A stretch of DNA of 64,000 nt from Trichobilharzia szidati (taxonomy: Eukaryota; Platyhelminthes; Trematoda; Strigeidida; Schistosomatidae), in contig OX235279.1 in assembly GCA_944472155.2 (NCBI GenBank), positions 151,116,199 through 151,180,198 of the forward strand, written 5' to 3'. Made by a program: the position numbers and the translations under genes. The notes under the pieces were generated by a model, which had not been told where the DNA came from, ran no database searches, and saw only the letters and a list, made by a program, of their open reading frames with translations. Shown here in pieces: positions 6,112-57,510 of the stretch (positions are counted from its first letter, which is position 1; each line of letters starts with the position of its first letter).

Positions 6112-7130
6112 TATTATTATTGTTCCCTTGGGTTCCTAGTAGAACATAGGGCTTCAACTGCACGCCTCCACTTGCTTCTGTCTTCTGCTGTACTTTTCAC
6201 TTGCATCCATATTAGTCCATACTGTTTCAACCCCTCTTCACATGATCTCCTCCATGTCACTCTTAGACGTCCCACTCGCCGCTTCCCTTTCGGGTTCCAC
6301 TCGAGCACTGACCTGACGCGCGATGTCACCCAGTGGTCTCCTCAGCGAGTGTCCAATCCATCTCCACTTTCTCCTGCATATTTGTTGGGCGATTGGTTCT
6401 TGTTTTGTTTGTTCCCATAGTTTCCTGTTGGTAATTCTTTCCGGCCATCTGATCTTCAGTATAGAGCGAAGTCAGTTGTTGTTGATAAAGGTCTGCAACA
6501 GGCTGTTGGAAATATTCTTTGTGACCCGCCAACTTTCTGATCCGTATAGAAGAACTGACTGACTTGACGTTTGTATTGAAAATCCGAATTTTGTTGTTGA
6601 TGCTGAGTTGAGTGGCGAAGATTTCCAGATTGGTTTCAGGTTGATGAATGTGTTTCTCGCCTTCCCGATTCTCGCTCGATTTGACATCCTTGTCCGTTCC
6701 TCCTGTAGTTGAGACAATGCTCCCTAGATAAGTGAATGAAGTAACCTCTTTCAAATCCCTCCCGTTGATGGTGATTGGCGTTGGATGTTTCTGCTGTTGT
6801 TGTTGTTGGTTGGTTATTTTCATAACCTCCGTCTTGTCTATGTTCACCTGGAGTCCTGTCTTTGCTGTTTCTTCGACCAGTTTGTCGGTTTTCACTTGTA
6901 AGTCTTCGATTTTGTGTGACATCAAACATAAATCATCCTCGAAATCCAGGTCTTCTAGGTTCTTCACATCGGTCCAGGATATCCCTGTCTTCTCGTTTCC
7001 CACTGTCTGACGCATAATCTAGTCCACCACAATTAGGAATATCATTGGTGATAATAAGCACCCTTGTCTGACTCCTGTGTTTACTCCAAACGCCTGGCTG
7101 AGTTTCCCGTTGTGGATCACTCTAATGAAC
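6112..7130 (-). mobile_element. RTE-type LINE, 5'-truncated, copy 1
   Basis: On the minus strand this encodes the C-terminal half of an RTE-clade reverse transcriptase: a WTDV..LEDLDF block, LCLMSHKIEDLQVKTDKL, GLQVNIDKTEVMK, a poly-Q stretch, FTYLGSIVS, then after frameshifts RKWRWIGHTLR-like and SKWRRAVEALCSTRN. The catalytic FADD reads FEDD, and stop codons and frameshifts break the frame. The 3' end (6112-6140) shows the family signature TATGTTCTACTAGGAACC followed by an AAT-type repeat. Confidence 0.88.
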
Positions 7131-10690: not shown

Positions 10691-10950
10691 TGATAGAGTA
10701 GTAATTTGGATAGAATTCAGTCTGCACCACACAAAAGACTAGATGCGTGACACTAGTTACTACTTATCATAGTATCTTGTCCTCCAGGAGGTTAGTCGGC
10801 GGTCAGAATAGCCTAGTGGTATCGTTTGTGACTTCAGCACTGAGTAATGTAGGTTCGAAGCCTCTTGAAGACTGCAATACGCCTTGCTGACTGGTGAGTA
10901 CTAGCAAGCTGGAGACCCAGGTGCGATCACCTCCAACCACCTTAAAACAA
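10690..10950 (+). mobile_element. Hammerhead-SINE family D, degraded
   Basis: An inverted piece of the D-family body (about 10715-10765) is followed by a plus-strand head with an A-box-like TAGCCTAGTGGTATCG and B box GGTTCGAAGCC (10805-10862). A ruined hammerhead follows (GCCTTGCTGACTGG...). The catalytic core is destroyed. Confidence 0.65.
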
Positions 10951-11045
10951 CAATTAGGAGTCTTGGTTTGTAGGGATTTGGTTGATTGGTTACAGGATTT
11001 CATCATGAGCTGACATTGGTTAGAGAACCACTGGAAAACCTGGGA

Positions 11046-11091
11046 GTACTGGACATCTGTTTCGTCCTAGTTTGGGACTCTTCAGTAGTGC
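11046..11091 (-). ncRNA. Type I hammerhead ribozyme, core intact, stem I damaged
   Basis: Minus strand: CTGAAGA core (fits CUGANGA), stem II GTCC/GGAC with CAAACTA loop, GAAA, and an ACAGATGT stem III with 2-nt loop, then the UC cleavage site. Stem I GCACTA/CAGTAC has two mismatches, so activity is doubtful. Confidence 0.65.
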
Positions 11092-11193
11092 GCAGCCACA
11101 ACCGGGATTCGAACCCAGGACCTTCTGGTTACGAGTTATACGAGCTCGCCTTGTAACCACAAGCTCCTGGGTTCGAATCCCGGTTGTGGCTAC

Positions 11194-11239
11194 GTACTAC
11201 TGAAGAGTCCCAAACTAGGACGAAACAGATGTCCAATAC
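11194..11239 (+). ncRNA. Type I hammerhead ribozyme, core intact, stem I damaged
   Basis: Plus-strand partner of the ribozyme at 11046-11091: CTGAAGA at 11200-11206, GTCC/GGAC stem II, GAAA at 11222-11225, cleavage expected after 11233. Stem I GTACTA/CAATAC has two mismatches. Confidence 0.65.
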
Positions 11240-11702
11240 TGCCAGGTTTTCCAGTGGTTCTCTAACCAATGTCAGTTCATGATGAAACCCTGTAACCAAT
11301 TAGGAGTCTGCTGGTTGATTTCTTACCGTCGTCCAGATTTTCATCTAATCTTCAGTTATCACCCGATAAATAAAATTGATTCTATCTTGTTCATTTAAAA
11401 AAGTCACACTTATTTTCAAAATTAGTTTACTGTTTGCTCTGCCTACATATTTTATGCTTGGCAAAAGTGAGTAAAGATCATTAAGAAAACAATAAATTTA
11501 AAATAAAAGCGACAACAACAGTTTGATTTGGAGGCAAATTTATTGATTTTGATGCTTTTACAAAATAGACAAGAGTTGTATGACCCAAAGTTAAATAAGG
11601 ACATGGTATTATTTCATTCACTGAGGGTGTTATGCAAATAAACAGACCACTAAACTTTACGTTTACTGATACATAAGGCTTTACATAAAGATCAACCAAG
11701 GG

Positions 11703-17545: not shown

Positions 17546-17876
17546 ATAAATGTTACCATACAGTTACTTGGATTATATGTGACTCCCTGCAGGACTCTGT
17601 TTGACGCACTGATTTGCCAATGGTTTAGTTCTTAGTTTTTTATCACTTCTGCCGGGAGAGACTCCCCACTGACCATTGGCACTCGCCTAAGTAAGGCGTA
17701 CTTGCGGACTGGTTGCGACTGGTGGATCCTCTTTAACTGCCACTCACGAACTTCTAATCTTCTCTATCAGTGCTTCATCGATACAAAGTAAACTTTCACA
17801 CTATTTTAATCAAGAATATTTGATTAAAAGCATAATAGAGAAAAAATTAGCATTATAATGCCTTAGATAAACTTAC

Positions 17877-18260
17877 ATCGCTGAAATTTTGAATCACAAG
17901 GATAACTTGCAGCCGGTCTAAAATTCCCGAATTTTCGACATGTATACTTTTTCAAAAGACAGTCATTTGCATACATTACACCATCAGAATCACAAACAGG
18001 ATTCAAGTCATTTGGACATGTTCTAGTCGGACAGGCGTATTGATTATTATTTCCACCATTGTTATTATAGTCCACCTTGACTAGTTGAGAAGGTTGTTGA
18101 AGTGATGGTGAGTCTTGTTGTGGTTTTTCATCTGTCTTCGTCTTCGGTAGATTTGAAGACGGTGTTAGTTGAATATTACTGTTGTCGGCTTTTGGGGGAT
18201 TCGACTGAGGCTTAGGCGTAGTTCTCAGTGATACATGACTGTTGATTGTAACTGATGTTT
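17877..18260 (-). CDS. Exon: linker plus Kazal domain of a follistatin/Kazal-type protein
   Basis: This 384-base exon (128 codons) has acceptor TTTCTGTACCTTAG just before 18260 and donor GTAAGT at 17876-17871. Both junctions are phase 1, so it joins in frame to the upstream exon at 25138-24848. Residues 1-70 are a Ser/Thr/Pro/Gln/Lys-rich linker, probably extended and glycosylated. An Asn-rich stretch follows, and then a Kazal domain beginning at YACPTRTC with C-x7-C-x10-C-x6-C spacing and the NPVCDSDGVMYANDC signature. Kazal modules inhibit serine proteases or mediate extracellular binding. More exons must lie to the left, where I could not find them. Agrin-, tomoregulin- or follistatin-like identity cannot be decided. 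Confidence 0.88.
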
Positions 18261-18486
18261 CTAAGGTACAGAAAGAAATGCAAACAAAATATATGTATGT
18301 ATATATCTATCAGACTGAGATTACCAGTCACCAAAATAGTAACAATACACCACATATTTTAAAACAAGCAACAATCGTGAAAAAACACGTATTTGATGGA
18401 TTCATATATTAAGGCAGAATTGTTTAACTGAATACTCTACAAGTAAGATTATCACCGACAGTTCATCGGTCACATATTTATTGAAA

Positions 18487-19564: not shown

Positions 19565-19632
<68 letters not shown>

Positions 19633-19990: not shown

Positions 19991-20404
19991 TAGAAAGGTA
20001 TTGCTAGGTGGTTTAAGACTACCGGCAAGAATTTATGGGCTTAGGTTTCGCATTTATTTGCGTGATACCTCTCTTCGGAGGTTGGTGTTAGTATCAACAA
20101 ATGATACCCACAGACGTTACCACTAGGCTATTCGCCCAAGTTGACCTCTTGTTAAACTGCAATGGATATACTGATTAGTTACTACAGGGGAACCAGTATT
20201 GTGACTCTAGCATTTCGGTTGAAACTAATACAGTATTTTTGATTGCACACTAGTCAGTAACAAGTGTAATGTGTCTAGTTCTATCTTCGGTGCAGATTGA
20301 ATTCTATCAGTCATGTTTGCAATGTGGCCACCATGCTAGGTAGCTCGCCATTACGGTGCACTGTTAATTGTTGGTATTAGATGGTTGGAGGCAATCGGCA
20401 GGAA

Positions 20405-20449
20405 GCCTTGGACCTAGGTTTCGTGCTAGTTGGCACTCATCAGCAAGGC
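20405..20449 (-). ncRNA. Type I hammerhead ribozyme, all core bases intact
   Basis: Minus strand in order: stem I GCCTTG, core CTGATGA, stem II GTGC-CAACTA-GCAC, GAAA, stem III ACCTAGGT (2-nt loop), cleavage site after GTC, then stem I partner CAAGGC. All helices pair perfectly and no conserved base is changed. A palindromic minimal stem III is typical of schistosome hammerheads and often needs RNA dimerisation for activity. Predicted to self-cleave before 20410. Confidence 0.85.
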
Positions 20450-20621
20450 GTATCTGCAACCTTGAAGGAGCTGATGTCCCTCCTGAGATTCGAACCCACG
20501 TCACCTACAGGAGGTCAGTCGCGAGCCTGAATAGCTCATTGGTAACGTCTCTGACTGCAGCACTGGGTGACGTGGGTTCGAATCTCAGAAGGGACATCAG
20601 CTCCTTCAAGGTTGCAGATAC

Positions 20622-20666
20622 GCCTTGCTGATGAGTGCCAACTAGCACGAAACCTAGGTCCAAGGC
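20622..20666 (+). ncRNA. Type I hammerhead ribozyme, all core bases intact
   Basis: Plus strand mirror of the ribozyme at 20405-20449: GCCTTG 20622-20627, CTGATGA 20628-20634, GTGC/GCAC stem II to 20648, GAAA 20649-20652, palindromic stem III, cleavage predicted between 20660 and 20661, CAAGGC 20661-20666. It lies 45 bases downstream of the B box of the tRNA-like head, so a pol III-type transcript would include it. Confidence 0.87.
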
Positions 20667-20704
20667 TTCTTGCCGATTGCCTCCAACCATCTAATACCAA
20701 ACTA

Positions 20705-21365
20705 ATACAGTATTGTAGGTAGAATTTCATGAAACCTAAGTGATACAATTGTGAATGAATACGAATAGTTTCCTCTTTGGTTTGGCCAGGAAGAAATAAT
20801 TAACTACAAGACTACATATGGAGCAAATACTCTCATCATGCAGAAACTGATGAGTAAACTTTTGGATAGTGAAAACCAAAACCATTCACGAAATCGTATA
20901 TACTACTGATTTATATGAGTAGTCCAAGGCCAATCACACAAAAACACAAGAGTGCTTGCCAGCTGATCACAGTAGCCTGAGTACCAAACTGTCGTTTCCC
21001 TTGTTCAGGGAGGGAAAAGTCGACCATGCACCCGGTTAGACTCAACTCAGAGAAATGAGTCATCTCAAAGCATATGATTTGCAAATCAGGACCTCAGTTC
21101 AACGTAACTACTGAGTCGTAAGTCCTTGATGAAATTTCTCTTTCAATGTGTGATATGCAATTACCAGACTTTGTGGTACAGTGTTACCGTGAGTTGTAAA
21201 GTTAGCTGGATAGGTTGGTCTGAATACGAGGAGAGATGCAAACTTCCACTTCCAAATGGACAGATATTAAGTCTTCCTAAGGACTACATATGCTTTAGCA
21301 CCCCCTACCAGTTTACACGCACTATGACACGGTTCGCCAGTTTAGAGAACGAAATAAGTCACTAA
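20705..21365. other. No gene recognised
   Basis: Intron-like sequence of the Kazal gene. A 79-codon plus-strand frame (21126-21365) has no recognisable motif. Confidence 0.4.
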
Positions 21366-29490: not shown

Positions 29491-29669
29491 AACCCAGTTA
29501 GAAATTTTTGATTTGACACTAGTAACTAGTGTGATGCGTCTAGTCCTCTCTTTGGTGCAGACTGAATTCTATCAGTTAGGTTGTAATGTGGCCACCATTC
29601 TAGGTAGCTCGCCATCACGGTGTGCATTGTTTGTGATGATATTAGATGGTTGGAGGCAATCGGCAGGAA

Positions 29670-29714
29670 GACCTGGACCTAGGTTTCGTGCTAGTTGGCA
29701 CTCGTCAGCAAGGC
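29670..29714 (-). ncRNA. Type I hammerhead ribozyme, core intact (C at position 7)
   Basis: Minus strand: GCCTTG, CTGACGA (fits CUGANGA), GTGC/GCAC stem II, GAAA, ACCTAGGT, cleavage site GTC, then CAGGTC. Stem I has one mismatch and one wobble, so activity is plausible but weaker. Confidence 0.78.
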
Positions 29715-30046
29715 GTATCTGCAACCTTGAATTAACTGATGTCCCTTCTGAGATTCGAACCTGCGTCACCCAGTGCTGCAGTCAGAGACGTTACCACTGA
29801 GCTATTCGGGCTCGCGATTGACCTCCTGTAGGACTGTAGTGGATATTTTGATTTGACACTAGTAACTAGTGTGATGCGTCTAGTCCTCTCTTTGGTGCAG
29901 ACTGAATTCTATCAGTCAGGTTGTAATGTGGCCTACAGGAGGTCAATCGCGAGACGGAATAGCTCAGTGGTAACGTCTCTGACTGCAGCACTGGGTGACG
30001 CGGGTTCGAATCTCAGAAGGGACATGAGTTAATTCCAGGTTGCAGA

Positions 30047-30365
30047 TGTAACAACAGAAGACAAGGGCCAGGCAACAGATCAGTTTTATTACGAAAACCA
30101 ACAGGTATTTATATGTATTTTACGTACATTAATAAGGCTCTGCCCGCAGAAAGAAGGCGGTCTTCTGATTGGTTGTTTGCAAACAAACGCAGTCTTCTGC
30201 TTTCTCGTTTTCGATATTTCTCGGAAATGCGAGCCACTTGTCTGCGAATCATATTTGTCCACGTCTAGGTCAGCTGTGATCGGTTGTTGAATCAGCCTAG
30301 ATTAATTTCCACCAATCAGCGTAGATCAATGTCTACCAATTGGCTAGCAGCTTGCTCTCACCACA
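30047..30365 (-). mobile_element. Solo LTR, 319 bp, with 4-bp target-site duplication
   Basis: The insertion begins TGTAACAAC and ends CTCACCACA, i.e. TG...CA termini. CAGA at 30043-30046 is duplicated at 30366-30369. Removing the insertion plus one CAGA restores the family D sequence exactly as seen at 20615-20625. On the minus strand a TATAAATA box (30113-30106) and an AATAAA signal (30090-30085) occur in the order expected of an LTR, so the element pointed left. A 4-bp duplication suits a Gypsy-type retrotransposon; the family cannot be named without the internal region. Confidence 0.85.
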
Positions 30366-30372
30366 CAGATAC

Positions 30373-30417
30373 GCCTTGCTGACGAGTGCCAACTAGCACG
30401 AAACCTAGGTCCAAGGC
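30373..30417 (+). ncRNA. Type I hammerhead ribozyme, intact but separated from its head
   Basis: GCCTTG 30373-30378, CTGACGA 30379-30385, GTGC/GCAC stem II, GAAA 30400-30403, palindromic stem III, cleavage expected after 30411, CAAGGC 30412-30417. All helices pair. The 319-bp LTR separates it from its tRNA-like promoter head. Confidence 0.83.
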
Positions 30418-30454
30418 TTCCTGCCGATTGCCTCCAACCATCTAATATCATCGC

Positions 30455-30740
30455 AGTTAGAAATACCAATGAATCCTAAAGTATTACAGTTTTTGGTCAT
30501 CTAGACAGATGCGCCTATAGCGCATTTTATGATTTCTCCGTGGATTATCCTTGTAGTTACTGGGAGACACTCCTACAACACACAAGAGACAATTATCCCG
30601 TGCAAAATCATGTTTTTAGTGTTTTTAATACATCATTTTAACTATTAAGAGACATTTTTCGTCTGAATTCTGATTGGCTGTTCAAGGTCACTGTAATTTT
30701 TGCCATGATATTTGAACTTTGCCGAATTCGGATTCACTTC
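30455..30740. other. No gene recognised
   Basis: Short unassigned AT-rich segment between a family D composite and family A remnants. Confidence 0.4.
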
Positions 30741-38150: not shown

Positions 38151-39445
38151 ATAGATTCCTATCTGAGATTAACCAAATGGCCTCACTCAAATAGTCTTAA
38201 ACTAAGTCAATCTAAATGTCATATTATTGATTTTAGTGTTAGACGTGAAGAAGGTTTGTTCAGACTGACTCAGCCCCATGATTTTCGTAATACTGACAGC
38301 ACTGTGATAGGAAGTAAACTGAATATCTCCCATCTCGGCATCACTTTCTCCTCAAATCTCTGTTGCTCATCTCATGTCTTGTTAAGTTCTAAGAAAAATT
38401 TTCTTTTTACCTATTATATGGAGAACTTGAGTCATTCTAGCATCAGAACTCAAACTCTTCTCTCGCTATTTAATAATTCATGTATTCTACTCATTCTTCT
38501 CAATTGTTCCCCTTCATTCTTTCATGGGCTTATCAAGAAAGACTATATCATGCTATGTGGAACACTGCAAGTTGTAAGTAGGGTTAGTGGTGTGGCTATG
38601 ACTGAATTTACTGATATTGTACTTGTTCAGTAGGCATTTTAATTGTTGCAAGCAACTAGCTTGAGTCATCCTGTCTGATACCGAGCATCCTCTTTACTAC
38701 TCACAAATTTCGCTTTACGTGTCTCCGGGTAAAACTAGAAGAAATTTCATAATAATATTTGTGCAGCTAAATACACGGACTAAATCATACCATATTTGAA
38801 TGGATTTTGTGTGAAGAGACAAATATCAGAAATAGGGTTATACCCTTTTGAAATCAGCAACTTAACTGCAAAGTATTGCAATCTTTATTATTATTTCATG
38901 CGTTAATTATTATACTATTTATTTATTACTCGTTACATTCCACCAACTTTCAGGTCTTGAGGTCTCATTATTTTTACCATTTTAAATAATTATCTATTTT
39001 CAAGTATTTGTTTTGTAGGGATTTTGTTTTATTGGTTGGGGGATATCATTATGAGCTGACATCAGTTAGGGAACCATTGGAGGAACTGCTAGGAGTACCG
39101 AACAACTGTTTCACCGTAGTTTGGGATTCATCGACAGTAAGCACCCAGTGGGTTTTGAATCCAGGAACTTCTGGTTAGAAGGCGAGCTCGTAGACCATTA
39201 AGCCACTTTGACCCAATGCAATGGCTTATAGCTCGAACCCAAGTGGGTAAGTACTGATGAAGAGTCCCAAACTAGGACGAAACAGCTGTCCAGTACTCCC
39301 AGCTGGTTTTCCAATGGTTCTCTAAGTGATGTCAGTTCATGATGAAATCCTCCAACCAATTATCTATGTATAAAAGGAGCTTAACTGTTGTATGATAATT
39401 ATTGTTGTTTGGAATAAAGTGATTATATTATTATTATTATTAAAA
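38150..39445 (+). mobile_element. CR1/Jockey-like retrotransposon 3' end, copy 5, interrupted by a SINE pair
   Basis: Encodes ISHLGITFSSNLCCSSHVLLSSKKNF, FTYYMENLSHSSIRTQTLLSLFNNS, FFHGLIKKDYIMLCGTLQVVSRVSG and MTEFTDIVL with scattered stops, then decayed thumb sequence. The 3' UTR runs to about 39002, resumes after the hammerhead-SINE pair at about 39361, and ends GGAATAAAGTGATTATATTATTATT near 39445. Confidence 0.83.
39003..39350. mobile_element. Head-to-head pair of family A hammerhead SINEs with 10-bp direct repeats
   Basis: A minus copy (about 39003-39233) meets a plus copy (about 39228-39350). AATTATCTAT occurs just before the pair (about 38987-38996) and again at its right end (about 39358-39367), inside CR1 3' UTR sequence that is otherwise continuous. 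The outer left end reads CAAGTATTTGTTTTGTAGGG and the right end CAACCAATT, the same ends as the pair at 10964-11296. The plus hammerhead (39251-39296) has perfect stem I but core ATGAAGA. Confidence 0.8.
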
Positions 39446-41520: not shown

Positions 41521-42360
41521 GGTAGTCTCATCACTGATCCTAATTACTCAGTATTAGTATTATATCATTATTATTTATTTCCTTTAATTCCTAGAGGAAC
41601 ATAGGGTTTCAACTGCACTTCTCCACTGCATTCGGTACTCTACTCAGTAGTAATATTTTAACTAATTTACTCAATCTATCGATTTTTCTTTTGTGATCCA
41701 GGAGACAGATATTGAGCATTGTTACTCACAAAAACTATTGACTTAATATTATTATTAACATTGTGTTGTATATGCGTATGTGCAGCCTAAAAAGGAATCT
41801 GCGTTTATTTGTGTATCCTAACAGTAATGATGACAATGTTTGTCTAGGTATGCGTAAACACAGTGCAGTTGTGCTATTGTTCAATTCATATTACTTCTCT
41901 CATTCCAAATAGTATTATTATTATTATTACTATTATTTGAAATTCTCTAGTTTTAAAAATAATTTATCCGTCAATAACCACAAAAGAATGAAGATGAGAT
42001 ACAAGTATTCGACAGTATACACACACTCACGTGAGTGTGTGCTTGTGTCTGTGTGTGTGTGTGTGTGTCTGTAATTGCAAAACCATTAGAGCACCTACAG
42101 TTAGTTGTCTACCGCATTTTCTAGGTGGGCGTATGAGTAACAAGAAAAGCAAATCAGGTTGTGTGAGAATTTTTCAAATTTTTAATACTCTTTAAGGTCA
42201 ATATTTCTCTTCAGTGAACAATGAATGATCAATCTCAATTGAGGTGGTTTTCAAATTGCAAATAAAAATAAAATGTAGTATTAATTAGACAAAATCAGCT
42301 TGATAAATATTGTTTGAGTTTTGTTTGTGATTGATTGGTTTGGTTTAATTAAGACAGGGT
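41520..42360. other. No gene; RTE tip and GT microsatellite
   Basis: An RTE 3' tip in minus orientation (about 41570-41635, TCCTAGAGGAACATAGGG) and a TG-rich microsatellite (about 42018-42070) are the only features seen. Confidence 0.5.
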
Positions 42361-42364
42361 TATT

Positions 42365-42862
42365 CGTTTCAAGCTTGATTACAGATTATGTCAGAAGAGA
42401 AACACTGAAAACCACATGAGGGGTACTGGACAGCTATCTCGTTCCATTTTGTGACTCGTCCGCAGTACACACCCACGACCTTCCAGTTACAAGGTGAGCT
42501 TGTAGACCATTCAGTCACTAGGACGCGGATCAGTAACCCATGAAGTCGTGACCAGTGGGATCCACACGATCTGAAGTGAGGACAAATACTTGCCGATTAC
42601 ACTGGCTAGTGGTCACACTAAAATCACAAATTAGTAGAAGTCAGAATTCATCGGTTGGCCATTGAGTCAGGTCTCAGCTGACGAATGGTACGGAAGGTCC
42701 TGGGTTCGAACCCTGTGGTGGGTTCGTACTGCCGACAAGCCCCAAACTACGACAAAACAGCTGTCTACTACTCCCAGGTAGTTTTCAATCTTTCTCTATC
42801 TGATATCAATCCGTGGTCAAACTTGAACCTACGAAAATCCCTGCAAACAAACTCATAGGAAT
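42365..42862. mobile_element. Head-to-head pair of family A hammerhead SINEs, old
   Basis: A minus unit (about 42365-42535) is followed by a longer plus unit (about 42540-42862) with upstream body, head (B box GGTTCGAACCC) and a hammerhead at 42725-42772 whose core is CCGACAA. Stem I and stem II outlines are visible in both but neither should cleave. No flanking duplication was found. Confidence 0.72.
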
Positions 42863-43714: not shown

Positions 43715-44271
43715 TCAATTATAATCACATGACTTTGACACTTGAGTTTTATAGTTTTCTTTGTTCTCTCCTATTTGTCGTTTGGATAGTAGAATTTTCC
43801 AGATATCGGGGACAGGTGATGAATCATTCCTATTACATGTATTTGTAGTTGATTCGATAAACAATGCTTCTGTTATCAATATCTCCCTCCACCTTGTGAC
43901 ATTAGATTTTAAAAATTTCATCCTATCCCATACTATTGTATGGTTGTGTGCAGTTGCATATAGTGCTACAGCTGAACTATTCTCTAGATTCCTCATCTTA
44001 TTCGGGTCAACCAATCTAGATTTTGCTAGGTTTTTATGTTCTGCTAGTCTGACTGCCCCTGTTCTACTAGTTTGACCTATGTATTTGACCTGACAATCAT
44101 TCCAGCAGGGTATTAGATAAACTGAATTGTTTTGTTTTAAAGGCTCCACAGGATCCTTTAACCGACAAAGCTTGTTTCTAATGTTGTATCTTTGAAAAAC
44201 AATGTTGACTGCTATCTTATAATTAGCGGTACTAGTATTATTATAGTCTTGGGTGTTTCCTGATGCAGGCT
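43715..44271 (-). mobile_element. Penelope-like element: linker and GIY-YIG endonuclease domain
   Basis: A single open frame of about 185 codons. It begins SGNTQDYNNTSTANYKIA, then NIVFQRYNIRNKLCRLKDPVEP, then the GIY-YIG core: SVYLIPCWNDCQVKYIGQTSRTG, RLAEHKNLAKSR, then SAVALYATAHNHTIVWDRMKFLK and WREILITEALFIESTTNTCN. The second tyrosine motif (KYIGQT), arginine, histidine and glutamate of the fold are present. This is the C-terminal endonuclease of an endonuclease-bearing Penelope-like element (Cercyon-like in schistosomes). The reverse transcriptase is missing. It is one of the least decayed coding pieces here. Confidence 0.85.
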
Positions 44272-44274
44272 AGT

Positions 44275-45830
44275 GAAAGAAACATCACCTAGTTCATTGA
44301 TTCGTTCCTAGTCCCAGGAAACAGGACATGTCAAGGGTGGAGTTAGTAAACTCAATCCATAAGAAAAAAGCAACCCCATTCCTATTGAAACTTTAAAGTA
44401 CAGAGGAAAACAATACCTGATAGTATATCTTGGTTTAAGGTGGTTCCCTAAGGGTCAACGATTTATAATCGATTTCTGTTTTTGGTGATCACTTTTCATA
44501 GAAGTATTTTAAGAGCTGTCGGTAAAAACAAACACTGGCGCATGTGTTATTTAATAAACTGTTCGAGTAGTGATTGAATTTTTGTATTGATTAGATCTCT
44601 GATTAGTAATCACTATGATATTTTCTTTTTTTGCAAAATATTTACTGAGTTCCATGGGAGTCTATGCTAATTTATTTTATTTTTTGCATATTTTTAGCAA
44701 ATTTCTAGAACTGATCAAAGTAAATGTAGGTTGACAGATTTTTCAGTCTAATGCTGAAAATCAATAAAGAAACAGCTTTACACCGACAATGTATAAGTCC
44801 TGCGTTTTCTGTTACTAGACGTGGTGTTATATTTTCTGAGTTATTTCAATTTTACATGGAGTATATTAGTCATTTATTGATTATTACTATTGTTTATTTG
44901 TTTTTCATTATTAAATTGTAGGGATTCAATATAGCTTTCATCACGAATCTACGTCCATTAGAAAACCACTGGACGTGTCCACCATGTTTGGTACTCTTCA
45001 AGGAATACGAACCCACAACCTCATCAGAGCTTGAAGCTGACAACATCAAGTTACGAGATCAGGCTGTCAATCAGCTAGACACTGTAAAGAGATTTCTAAT
45101 CATACATGAATTTCGGTTTCTGTCATTTATTATTACTGTTATTAGTATTATTATTGATTTATTGATTTATTATCATGCCTCACATTGTCCACTATTTAAA
45201 TGCATTTTTGTTGATTTGAAAAAAGCAGTACAATGTAAATAAATTACAAACTGAAAAGATTCAATACTTATTCCATATTTCTACAAAATTCCATTGTCCT
45301 TAAAAAGCTTTTTTTAGAATTTTTTGAGAAAACGAAGAAAGAGAAAGAGAACAAAGAATGTGATTATGGAAACCAGTACTTTCATTTGCAGAACACATTT
45401 CTTTGTGTTGTTTACTTTATATATTTGTAATAAGTGAGAAGATGTGAGTTGTATTCAAATTTTCATTTTCTTTTTTTTCATTTTAAAATGTAAATGTACT
45501 AAATAGTTGGAAGATTAATGGCTACTCAGTAATGTGTAGTTTTTATTTTATAAATTCCTCAGATATCGCAATTGTAGTACCAGTGTAGTGTAGTATTACC
45601 TATTGTCAGGTGTCAAGTATCTAGGTGTTTGGTTGATTTTAAGGCAAATTTCTTCACGAACTCAAATCCTTTGGAGAAGCGATGAGAACCGGTGAATGTT
45701 CAATGGTTGTTTCGGTTTGGTTCGATATTCTTCAGAAAAACGAACCCCCTGAACACATGAGGGATCAGAAGTCAGAGCTGTTCGACTATTGGTTTCGAAC
45801 CCATTATTAGTGAATATCTACTTTCCCACC
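44275..45830. other. No gene recognised
   Basis: AT-rich. A segment near 44365-44410 (GCAACCCCATTCCTATTGAAAC) recurs near 33305-33345 as an unclassified repeat. Around 44930-45070 there are weak remnants of family A SINE sequence. Confidence 0.4.
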
Positions 45831-45839
45831 TCATAACCT

Positions 45840-46215
45840 CAAGTTTAATCATAAGTCGATATCAGATAGAGAAACACTGAAAGCTACCTGGGAGTACTAG
45901 ACAGCTGTTTCGTCGTAGTTTGAGACTCGCCGGCAGAATGGACCCACCGCAGGGGTTCGAGCCCAGGACCTTCTGATTACAAGTCAAGCTTGTAGACCAT
46001 TCGTCTACTGAGACCCGACTCAATGGCCAACCGATGAATTCTGACTTCTACTAATTCGTGATTTTAGCGTTATCGCAAGCCAGTGTCATGCTCACTCCCG
46101 ACCAAGTGGACTCTGCTGGTCATGACTTCTCACTAGAACTACAGTCAGCCTCGTCCTGTAGCTAGTCACCAGCGAGCATCAGAATGCGTTTCAAGAGTTA
46201 GTTTGTAGGGATTTT
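45840..46215 (-). mobile_element. Hammerhead-SINE family A, long subtype, near full length
   Basis: Minus unit with upstream body (GCTCGCTGGTGACTAGC start near 46180), tRNA-like head (B box GGCTCGAACCCC), hammerhead region about 45888-45940 (core CCGGCGA, dead) and 3' body. A family A tail (TTTGTAGGGATTTT) abuts the 5' start at about 46195-46215, a tail-to-head junction like that at 15150-15210. Confidence 0.78.
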
Positions 46216-49589: not shown

Positions 49590-50345
49590 TCTTTTTTGAC
49601 ATAGAACTTTGCACATTTGTGCGGCAATTCAAGTCGCCATACTTCACTCAGCACACAAAGCAAGATAAGAAAGTAGGAGAAATGCATAATATAGATAGTA
49701 AACAGAGGTGAGAGGCAAAGGTATAGTAGTAACGAAGAACAAAACAGATTAGTTGGAAATCATAAGTCACAAGGAGTGGATGCATCTGCGCCATTGAGAA
49801 CGATTTTGAGCCATGTCACCAATTGTTTCCAACCACTGATTTTTACCGTCCCCAGGACCCAAACCAGGAGGTCTACACCTTCCTACGTGTCTTAGACTAA
49901 CTGATGTAGATTTCATTGACTGTTGCCGTGTTTCTGTTTGACCACCGCTAGCTCTTTTCCAGCCTGGCCCTAAATCAGCTAACATTGCCCGTCGAGGAAG
50001 GCAATGACTAGGCATATGTAGCACATGTCCTAACCATCTCAGTCGATGTAATTTCACAGTCTCGTCGATTGATTTCCCCGCCTTACCTAGCACTCGACGC
50101 CTAACCTCAATATTGCTCACCTTATTATACCACTTCACATGGGAGATAGAACGCAGACACCTATGATCGAAGACAGCTGATCTTTTCATGTCTTCCGCTC
50201 TCAATGGGCAGGTCTCACAGCCATAAAGGAGGACGGAGCGGACTGTTGAGCAGTACACACGCCCTTTGGTCGATAGCTGAATATCACGTCTACGCCAGAG
50301 ACGGCGTAAACTGGCATATGCGAAACTAGCCCTCTGTATTCGTAC
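49590..50345 (-). mobile_element. RTE2-family LINE 3' part
   Basis: The minus strand encodes VSVRIQRASFAYASLRRLWRR, DIQLSTKGRVYCSTVRSVLLYG, CETCPLRAEDMKRSAVFDHRCLRSISHVKWYNK, EVRRRVLGKAG, LHRLRWLGHVLHMPSHCLPRRA, and, at the end, DMAQNRSQWRRCIHSL at about 49767. The order is that of the RTE post-RT domain but the sequence is clearly distinct from the FADD-bearing family at 36376. Its 3' UTR continues to about 49590. Confidence 0.85.
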
Positions 50346-50419
50346 TGAAACTTCACTCTGCTCCTAGCAGTCTTTTCTAGCCACATTCACGATTGCCCAT
50401 AAGCTGTTATCTCCTTCTC

Positions 50420-55420: not shown

Positions 55421-56040
55421 TATATGAGTCTGAATTAATGAATTATTGTTACGCGTACTTTATATTCTTGTACCACTATGCTCCAATATCGAAATAACTG
55501 TTAATTTCTGTTCACTGTTATCCCGTGTGATCTCACTACTTTACTCACATAGACTTTAATTTGTCGTCTACAAATTACACAGTTCAGAGCGAAAATTCAC
55601 CAAGGGCTTCCTTTGAAAAACAAAACCAATGAGATTATAATGTGTTACCTACTAAGTAACATAAACGGCGGTCAAAAAGGCAAGCCAGCCACAAATACGC
55701 ATCAGAAACTACCCATAGCTAGCCAGAGTGAATTGATTTAACCACTGAACGTCTGTTTTCCGTTCGCTTGGGGTCAAAATTTCTCAGTGACAACGAACAT
55801 ATTTTGATTTAGATTACAAACTACACGATTTGTGACTATCTACTTATTCAGACAGATGAAATAGGCTTCAGGAAAGGGGGAAAACCTGTCTGGTGTTTAC
55901 AGGATTTCTATTTGACCAGTACTTCTAGCAGCCTACCACTTATAGGAATCAGCTGTTTTTATCGTCTCTTAAATTGCACACTTATTCAAGTAGTTTGAAA
56001 AGGTAGTTTCGTTGAATCTTAATTAATAATTCTGATTATT
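55420..56040. other. No gene; third copy of an unclassified repeat
   Basis: About 55660-55800 resembles the repeats at 5640-5860 and 35040-35260 (CTGAACGTCTG..GTTCGCTTGGGG). Otherwise unassigned. Confidence 0.4.
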
Positions 56041-56044
56041 TTAG

Positions 56045-56300
56045 AAAGTTGAAGGCAATCGGCAGGAAGCCTTGGACCTAGGTTTCGTGCTAGTTGGCAC
56101 TCGTCAACAAGGCGTATCTGAAACCTTGAAGGAACTCATGTCCCTGCCGATTGCCCTCCAACTATCTAAAATCATCAAATCAATGTACATCATGATAGCG
56201 AGCTACCTAGAATGGTGGCCACATTGCAAACCTGACTGACAGAATTCAGTCTGAACCAAAGAGAGGACTAAACACGTCGCACTAGGTACCAGTGTCCAAT
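56045..56300 (-). mobile_element. Family D hammerhead SINE, head missing
   Basis: Minus hammerhead at 56069-56113 with perfect stems but core TTGACGA (C3 to U), predicted inactive. It is followed to the right by an inverted repeat of the unit end (GCCGATTGCCCTCCAAC) and the D-body (56195-56290) in reverse orientation. Confidence 0.78.
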
Positions 56301-57510
56301 CAAAATAATTCTGATTATTCCTTTCGAGTTTAACTGCTTTCATTATAAGTTTCTATCCTTATGAAACATTCACCAAATGTTGTAAGATCGCATGGATATT
56401 TTCTAAAGTGTTTAAGAGATAATTGTTTAGTAATATAGTGAGGGGCGAGTAACGTCATTTATAGAGTTACGCGACAGTGGTTTCTCAAGATGCATAAACT
56501 CCATTCACATGATAAGTAACAAGGTAGTGAAAGTATACAAGAACCGTATTTAACATGATAATTACTGTTATCGGATAACCTCCAGTTGAATAGTGTGAAG
56601 AAGGTGAGGAGACAACTAGCGAAACAACACGACGGTACCTATTACTGACTGATACGTGTATCTGAGAAACAATCACGTCGATTATAAACTGCTTGGCGAC
56701 TGGGTCGTTCCGCTCCTTAGAAGTGAGTGAATGACACATCTCAGTGGTGTAAATGGAATCCAACGATTAGGAAACATTTTAAAGCAATTGCAGAATGTGA
56801 AATCAAAGAAACTTATTCCATTTACAGGCTACAAGCTTTACTTGACGAATTATTTGGTTCTTGCACCCTTCACAAGTGTCAAAATCTAACACACATTCTA
56901 CCATTCGACATTACTTTCTGGATAACTTCAAAGAAGGGCTCTAATGGAACTACATGATACGAAATTACCAGTTTCTACAGAATTTATCCGGTGAGTAATT
57001 TGCATAGCCACATTTGATTGTGTTCTGAGGTTTGTTTGAAAGTGCGATTTATATTTTAAGGTCATCGGAAACGAGTCAATTTGAAGATGTATACCGAGGT
57101 TGCCCGACAGCGAAATTTCATCCCAAAGACTTGTGCATATTATCTGTCAGGGAAGATGAAATGTGAATGTTCAGTCTGTGAATTTAAGATACCTTATACA
57201 ATTGAATTTTGGTTAACTAATTTTCTTCCACAGTACTCATTTTGCACTAAAAAAATATCTAGACTGCATACTGCCTTAAGGCACCGTTGAGGCAAATTTG
57301 AGTCTTGATTTTATTACTACTGAATAGAGTCACACACAAATCTATCGACTAATAATCTTTTTTGCTGTCTTTGGAGCCTTTCCTGACTATGCATGCCTCA
57401 AAGAAGTTTCATACAGCTGTACATCAAGAAGTAAAGATCGGTCCCTTGCGTTTATACCTCAATGATTCGGTTTTGGTCATTACAGGGTTTTTTACTAATT
57501 TCACAATAAT
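56300..57510. other. No gene recognised
   Basis: Two plus-strand frames (56727-56957 and 57081-57290) contain cysteines but match no family I know; 57260-57315 belongs to the repeat also seen at 32870. I do not call a gene. Confidence 0.4.

Follow-up and report, generated by a model that had tools for sequence, protein, structure and literature searches.

Retrozymes, two-strand priming by Penelope-like elements and LINE twin priming are already known. For the return of animal hammerhead retrozymes to DNA, Penelope-like elements have been named as a strong candidate (PMC7229834). Work with a purified Penelope-like protein has shown that it cuts both strands of its target and extends each of them. 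Synthesis begins at sites inside the RNA, within an AC-rich region, and the stretch between the two starts forms the 'tail' of genomic copies. In vitro, the start sites are the same for both strands and are non-homologous to the cut DNA (PMC11167929). Rotifer Penelope copies are arranged head-to-head, with one repeat shorter and with short target duplications (PMC3846280).

We analyzed a 64-kb stretch of DNA (the window, to which positions refer) from Trichobilharzia szidati, an avian schistosome of the family Schistosomatidae. Near 20 kb, it contains a palindrome with a ribozyme on each strand, built from a 340-nt unit that is like a metazoan retrozyme or an Sm-alpha-like SINE in its size, head, ribozyme and arrays.

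Anatomy of the insertion at 20 kb

The inverted repeat consists of two 135-nt arms (20371-20505 and 20566-20700) that are separated by a 60-nt spacer and match at 133 of 135 positions. The original prediction of nearly exact reverse complements is thus sustained, except that it carried the right arm to 20703 and the arms stop at 20700. Relative to the copy at 29.5 kb, each arm has one private change (by eye). The true inserted unit is 20238-20699, in which the left arm extends into a tail of ~130 nt and the right arm is without a tail. The target-site duplication is an exact 16-bp repeat, AAACTAATACAGTATT, at 20222-20237 (left copy) and 20699-20714 (right copy). Direct repeats of at least 16 bp had a frequency of 0.00045 among 20000 random position pairs. 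Because this exact repeat frames 20238-20699, both arms arrived in one insertion, and the palindrome is a single retro-insertion.

The 340-nt unit was defined from the full minus copy at 29.5 kb. In order, it comprises a tRNA-like head with A and B boxes, a hammerhead, a linker (u~195-222), a tail and an A-rich end (u331-340), with no RT or GIY-YIG ORF inside. At the 20-kb locus (L001), the first arm (20238-20505, minus strand) spans u76-u340 and includes the tail but lacks box A. The second arm (20504-20699, plus strand) spans u14-u209, with the head, both boxes and the ribozyme, and has no tail. The arms meet head-to-head with a 2-nt overlap, and their outer ends differ, at u340 (the A-rich site) versus u209.

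Each arm carries a type I hammerhead ribozyme, at 20405-20449 (minus) and 20622-20666 (plus), and both score 43.4 bits against Rfam Hammerhead_1 (RF00163), for which the gathering cut-off is 34 bits. Both arms retain an intact core (CTGATGA and GAAA), with GCCTTG/CAAGGC as stem I and GTGC/GCAC as stem II, as the original prediction had claimed. The cleavage sites that it gave also agree with the cut predicted here after GTC, between 20660 and 20661 on the plus strand and between 20411 and 20410 on the minus strand. Stem III, which it called palindromic, is interpreted here as 2 bp closed by the tetraloop CTAG. A repeat of the schistosome type had been proposed, and this agrees with a type I hammerhead in a 340-nt, tRNA-headed unit.

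By pattern match, a box A-like pol III element lies at 20532-20545 (plus), in the right arm only, and a box B-like element at 20575-20585 (plus), with a mirror copy at 20486-20496 on the minus strand. The sole complete pair at this locus is therefore that of the right arm, and the left arm has box B alone. ARAGORN called no tRNA.

Two old, decayed copies of the unit, at 10709-10952 (plus) and 20038-20173 (minus), retain a tail-to-head tandem junction. The latter sits just upstream of the palindrome. A perfect TA microsatellite occupies 19567-19612.

Copies in the window and in the assembly

The original prediction singled out the two-strand arrangement with both cores intact as worthy of attention. 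The arrangement is not unique to this locus: the 64-kb window has 11 hammerheads that score above the Rfam cut-off, and arms on both strands also occur at 29.5, 11.0 and 39.0 kb, with both above the cut-off at 29.5 and 11.0 kb and one at 39.0 kb. The plan of the 20-kb locus recurs at 29.5, 56.0, 11.0 and 39.0 kb, each time with its own repeats (11, 16, 13 and 10 bp, respectively). The second composite of the 340-nt family (29506-30452) contains one complete unit on the minus strand together with 88 nt from the tail of the next unit, and its plus arm is split by an insertion of ~320 bp. It is flanked by an 11-bp duplication (29495-29505 and 30454-30464), and A and B boxes are present in both arms (pattern match). 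The third composite (56041-56305; 16-bp duplication at 56025-56040 and 56304-56319) has one ribozyme remaining. A second hammerhead family, family B, forms a palindrome at 10964-11296, with ribozymes at 11046-11091 (minus) and 11194-11239 (plus) and a 13-bp duplication (10951-10963 and 11297-11309). An older family B palindrome at 38998-39357 has one scoring ribozyme (39251-39296, plus) and a 10-bp duplication (38988-38997 and 39358-39367).

We searched the 1.11-Gb T. szidati assembly. The palindrome query gave 3811 candidates, of which 40 were scored, yielding 24 loci, of which 22 are distinct (L016 and L021 repeat L001 and L006). These loci are all head-to-head by construction, so the frequency of palindromes rests on a second sample, drawn with the tail only. 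There, the best-scoring 40 of 563 candidates were taken, which are the youngest copies. Removal of five array hits and one duplicate (L031) left 34 dispersed loci. Among these, 23 are head-to-head and the other 11 are not, a count that applies to the best 40 of 563. Seven further loci, which were single-arm matches of the palindrome query, gave five composites. Tandem arrays of the 340-nt unit were found on C841, C4 (L050, 78.37 Mb), C505, C616 and C258.

Exact duplications of at least 9 nt (9-16 nt) flank 34 of the 50 composites, and none of that length was found at the other 16. When flanks were swapped between loci, the mean was 0.2 and the maximum was 1 in 200 trials. Two composites, L018 and L020, share both flanks and are one insertion; counted in this way, there are 49 insertions, and 33 have duplications. 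The script called no duplication for L025 since an insertion splits its arm, and its 11-bp duplication was found separately. The 11 non-inverted direct copies showed no target duplication in the seven that were checkable.

The ends recur at fixed unit positions. In the tail sample, the second end falls within u202-220 in 20 of 23 composites by script, and in 21 of 23 when L025 is placed by hand. The exceptions are L043, with both ends near u340, and L072, with its second end at u146. For the remaining comparisons, we set aside L019, L043, L072 and L025, leaving 46 of the 50 composites. In all 46, as in L025, one arm stops behind the ribozyme and its partner stops in the tail; L014 (u182) and L044 (u317) deviate from the usual positions. 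Ends of the same kind occur at L043 (both in the tail) and L019 (both behind the ribozyme). The tail query is blind to 213/213 copies, which the palindrome query is able to detect.

The head junctions vary. There are 44 distinct pairs in the 46 composites, and the only repeats are L004/L024 and L018/L020, indicating that the composites arose separately. The spacer depends on the junction and therefore also differs among loci. In 26 of the 46 composites, including the 20-kb locus, each arm has unit sequence that is missing from its partner, and in nine an arm is longer than one unit. In an arm-distance test of clustering by locus, only 16 of 66 arms had their mate nearest or tied, and private mutations dominate (mean distance of 0.051 within loci and 0.069 between loci); this comparison carries no weight in the interpretation below.

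Two loci stood out in their surroundings. The flanks of L019 (C7:2091209-2091546) are mirrored at 97% over 158 nt, so this locus either belongs to a more extensive palindrome in the genome or was misassembled. L030 and L031 (C1, 70.436 and 70.442 Mb) are one composite present twice, ~5 kb apart and oppositely oriented, probably through an inverted segmental duplication.

Origin and function of the palindrome

We consider it probable that the palindrome stems from one retrotransposition event, in which both strands of a staggered cut served as primers for reverse transcription, each at a different internal site of the RNA, and we infer that the enzyme was Penelope-like. A staggered cut would open the target DNA, and the 3' end of each target strand would prime reverse transcription inside the ribozyme RNA. 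One strand would prime at the A-rich site u340 (AATCAAAA), and its counterpart at u~202-220, in the linker that directly follows the ribozyme. From these starts, each cDNA would extend toward the 5' side of the RNA for a variable length, in some loci beyond a full unit, and the two cDNAs would join head-to-head, often across a few common bases. Fill-in of the stagger would create the 16-bp duplication, and since both cDNAs would cross the ribozyme, each strand would receive one. The enzyme would likely be of the Penelope-like type and would move the unit as a passenger; with no RT or GIY-YIG ORF of its own, the unit can only be a passenger of such an element.

The unit, its fixed termini, the target duplications, the variable junctions, the microhomology at the second end and the multi-unit arms were observed directly. 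At the second end, target bases extend the RNA sequence with a mean run of 1.6 nt, versus 0.59 nt when permuted (0/5000, n = 25; two of 27 loci, with unaligned gaps of 2 and 4, were dropped). This microhomology above chance suggests that the second target strand was also probably primed on RNA. Arms over one unit in 9 of the 46 composites indicate that the template was multimeric or circular. Three non-inverted copies (L028, L029 and L047) consist of one or two full units that run from u195-199 to u209-218, and no target duplication was found at them. These three cases are suggestive of copying round a circle rather than along a multimer, but they are few. The ends of the composites lie in or next to the most open parts of the predicted 340-nt circle: when its 340 windows of ten nt are ranked by openness, the first 17 begin at u331-338, u195-198 or u214-218. 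Use of one RNA molecule by both strands would be the simplest reading, and a strand-specific site preference would also suffice.

Several observations count against two-strand priming. Duplications were not found at 16 of the 50 composites or at any of the seven checkable direct copies. The circle windows at u203-209, where many second ends fall, are predicted to be moderately open (ranks 68-123). The microhomology run is zero in 8 of the 25 loci, and microhomology is not predicted by the Penelope model, since the published enzyme starts at sites non-homologous to the cut DNA. Moreover, 20 of the 46 composites also fit fold-back copying, and no RT or complete enzyme is tied to the 340-nt unit.

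The window contains a candidate remnant of a Penelope-like endonuclease, an ORF remnant with a GIY-YIG-like stretch at 43715-44269 (minus). It is 84% identical to P0001, whose own match to GIY-YIG is weak (E 0.0023) and falls short of the Pfam cut-off; the window ORF itself matched no Pfam family. Around it are family B copies at 42340-42480 (minus), 42691-42851 (plus), 45617-45749 (minus) and 45844-45986 (minus). This ORF and the nearby hammerhead copies may together represent a degenerate Penelope-like element in which the hammerhead copies form the terminal repeats. Among other ORFs, LINE-like fragments lie at 6326-7018 (minus; DUF6451 above the cut-off and a sub-threshold reverse-transcriptase match) and 49767-50363 (minus; sub-threshold DUF6451). 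An ORF at 17863-18306 (minus) encodes a Kazal-type serine protease inhibitor domain (33.5 bits, cut-off 21).

We scored 40 of 278 family B candidates and fetched 12, of which 11 are distinct (L077 and L079 look identical). Five of the 11 are head-to-head (L076, L078, L080, L082 and L083). The second end lies at B140-143 in L078, L080, L082 and the two window palindromes, ~25 nt before the tail end at B166; the other end of L082 falls beyond the fetched stretch. Both ends of L076 are at B166; L083 ends at B132. Family B thus has a like plan with a shorter tail, which supports the Penelope parallel.

Twin priming is the mechanism by which the APE endonuclease of a LINE would produce such a locus. 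The first strand would start at the A-rich site of a linear tandem RNA and the second end would start upstream on the same RNA, inverting the 5' part. In the L1 literature, this mechanism predicts inversion, a single target duplication and microhomology. The composites match this prediction, with inversion, one duplication of 9-16 bp and microhomology. LINE fragments are present in the window, and a dimeric RNA that left a gap of 39 nt (u253 versus u214) would account for the copy at 29.5 kb. However, with ordinary twin priming the second start should be scattered, and instead it is fixed at u202-220 in nearly all composites of the tail sample. In addition, inversion is the majority form in that sample, and the ends of the tail lie within the tandem unit. 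We regard a LINE-type origin as rather unlikely.

Fold-back, or self-priming, in which one cDNA turns at its end and copies itself, would account for the head-to-head shape. It has been proposed for rotifer Penelope elements (PMC3846280) and is compatible with the 20 composites mentioned above. However, in the other 26 each arm holds unit sequence that is absent from the other, and the second end matches the target DNA. The 20-kb locus is among these 26, and simple self-copying is therefore excluded for it. As a general explanation, fold-back is very improbable. We give equally little credence to the palindrome as a stable composite that is mobile and inherited whole. The ends do recur at the same unit positions, and the junction (76,14) is found at two loci, L004 and L024. 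However, the junctions are almost all distinct, loci with different target duplications have different junctions, and the L018/L020 pair is one insertion that was duplicated.

A DNA transposon or MITE was rejected because the two ends are different unit positions and the duplications vary from 9 to 16 nt. The ribozyme cleavage site as template end was also rejected: the 92 arm starts of the 46 composites show no pile-up at u170/171, with one within 3 nt (L039, u168). The 20-kb and 29.5-kb loci suggested a fixed RNA 5' end at u14, which we do not claim, as the further cases (L004, L011, L018, L020 and L024) belong to the sample drawn with the 20-kb locus as query.

The original prediction proposed that folding competes with cleavage and that the locus could act as a switch. 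We consider a selected two-strand ribozyme switch highly implausible. Both cores are intact at the 20-kb locus, and the competition itself is borne out by modeling: in read-through RNA, the plus ribozyme is predicted to pair with the left arm at >0.999. The predicted fold of RNA 20371-20703 has an energy of -300.8 kcal/mol against a shuffle mean of -104.4, so this hairpin is not due to chance. In the nascent RNA, 96-99% of the right arm is predicted to be paired at each of 11 lengths from 20580 to 20700. Because the antisense arm is transcribed first and the ribozyme is so fully paired, the model predicts silencing and dsRNA rather than switching, that is, one outcome and not two.

Transcripts in either direction were expected to carry a ribozyme and an antisense copy. 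This is correct for read-through, but not for a transcript that starts from the right-arm boxes. These lie inside the palindrome, so a transcript from there, if the putative promoter is used, would lack the antisense copy. Such antisense-free RNA of the right arm alone may still cleave poorly, since the probability of stem I is ~0.15 in a model of 20504-20714 versus 0.97 in the isolated 45-mer. Across 102 arms, mutated cells number 39 of 1320 inside the ribozyme cores versus 239 of 5967 outside the ribozyme (Fisher P 0.08), and thus there is no clear selection on the cores. Both cores are intact in 19 of the 36 sampled loci with arms on both strands. The intact cores are explained by the youth of the copies. 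The palindrome is without evident function, and its read-through RNA would be a hairpin with a buried ribozyme.

An assembly artefact (a mirrored read or mis-join), which the original prediction had named as its possible undoing, can be practically discounted: the L019 flanks show that mirrored segments occur in the assembly or genome, but at the 20-kb locus only element sequence is mirrored, the ends differ and the mirror stops at the element boundaries within the 16-bp duplication, and other composites have arms diverged by up to 10%.

Relation to known retroelements

The unit resembles the metazoan non-LTR retrozymes described in PMC7229834 in being a small, non-coding tandem repeat of a few hundred bp with a type I hammerhead. 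In both, copies are dispersed as well as arrayed, and target duplications, when present, exceed 4 bp (PMC7229834). The unit falls within their range in detail, with RF00163 scores of 43.4 bits in both arms, a length of 340 nt within the 150-450 bp repeat range, and duplications of 9-16 nt. In contrast, most dispersed copies in our tail sample are head-to-head palindromes, and we noticed no such description in the excerpts of PMC7229834.

Sm-alpha and Sj-alpha of Schistosoma (PMC2770079 and PMC8490949) share with the unit a tRNA-related head, a hammerhead, a length of ~335-340 nt and hosts in the Schistosomatidae. Inverted composites are unmentioned in the excerpts of these two papers. The host here is Trichobilharzia, and the likeness is one of size, head and ribozyme rather than of compared sequences. 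A and B boxes, a putative promoter, are present in the right arm at 20 kb and in both arms at 29.5 kb, as would suit an Sm-alpha-like SINE.

LINE twin priming likewise yields an inverted 5' segment, one target duplication and microhomology. It differs from the present case in that the arms here overlap across the ribozyme, the second start is fixed and inversion is the majority. In the literature searched, which was seen in excerpts and did not include the original Sm-alpha and Penelope-hammerhead papers, we found no prior description that combines retrozymes, Penelope two-strand priming and twin priming, with palindromes making up most dispersed copies of a ribozyme retroelement as they do in the tail sample. 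The locus advises caution, as two-strand ribozyme palindromes can be insertion by-products. Genomes of this kind contain many natural foldback loci that are capable of giving dsRNA if read through.

Penelope-like elements form another parallel. In both, two strands are extended from two internal starts with a 'tail' between them (PMC11167929), and genomic copies show head-to-head inverted repeats of which one side bears the tail, along with short target duplications, a hammerhead motif and tandem copies (PMC3846280 and PMC11167929). The 46 composites and L025 have this form, with two internal starts, one per arm, and the tail on one side. In contrast to Penelope-like elements, the unit codes for no protein, target microhomology is present, and the tail is ~127 nt in family A and ~25 nt in family B. 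As a tentative proposal, animal retrozymes might be moved by a two-headed Penelope-type enzyme acting on a single ribozyme RNA that is probably circular. Of two exposed A/C-rich linkers and two cut strands, each half would engage one, and the halves would almost never choose the same linker, so that a ribozyme palindrome, and not a linear copy, would be the normal product. The two fixed internal starts, one per target strand in most of the dispersed composites sampled, match the behavior of the purified Penelope-like protein in vitro and make the link between retrozymes and Penelope-like elements testable. Family B, in which a similar plan comes with a shorter tail, adds to this link.
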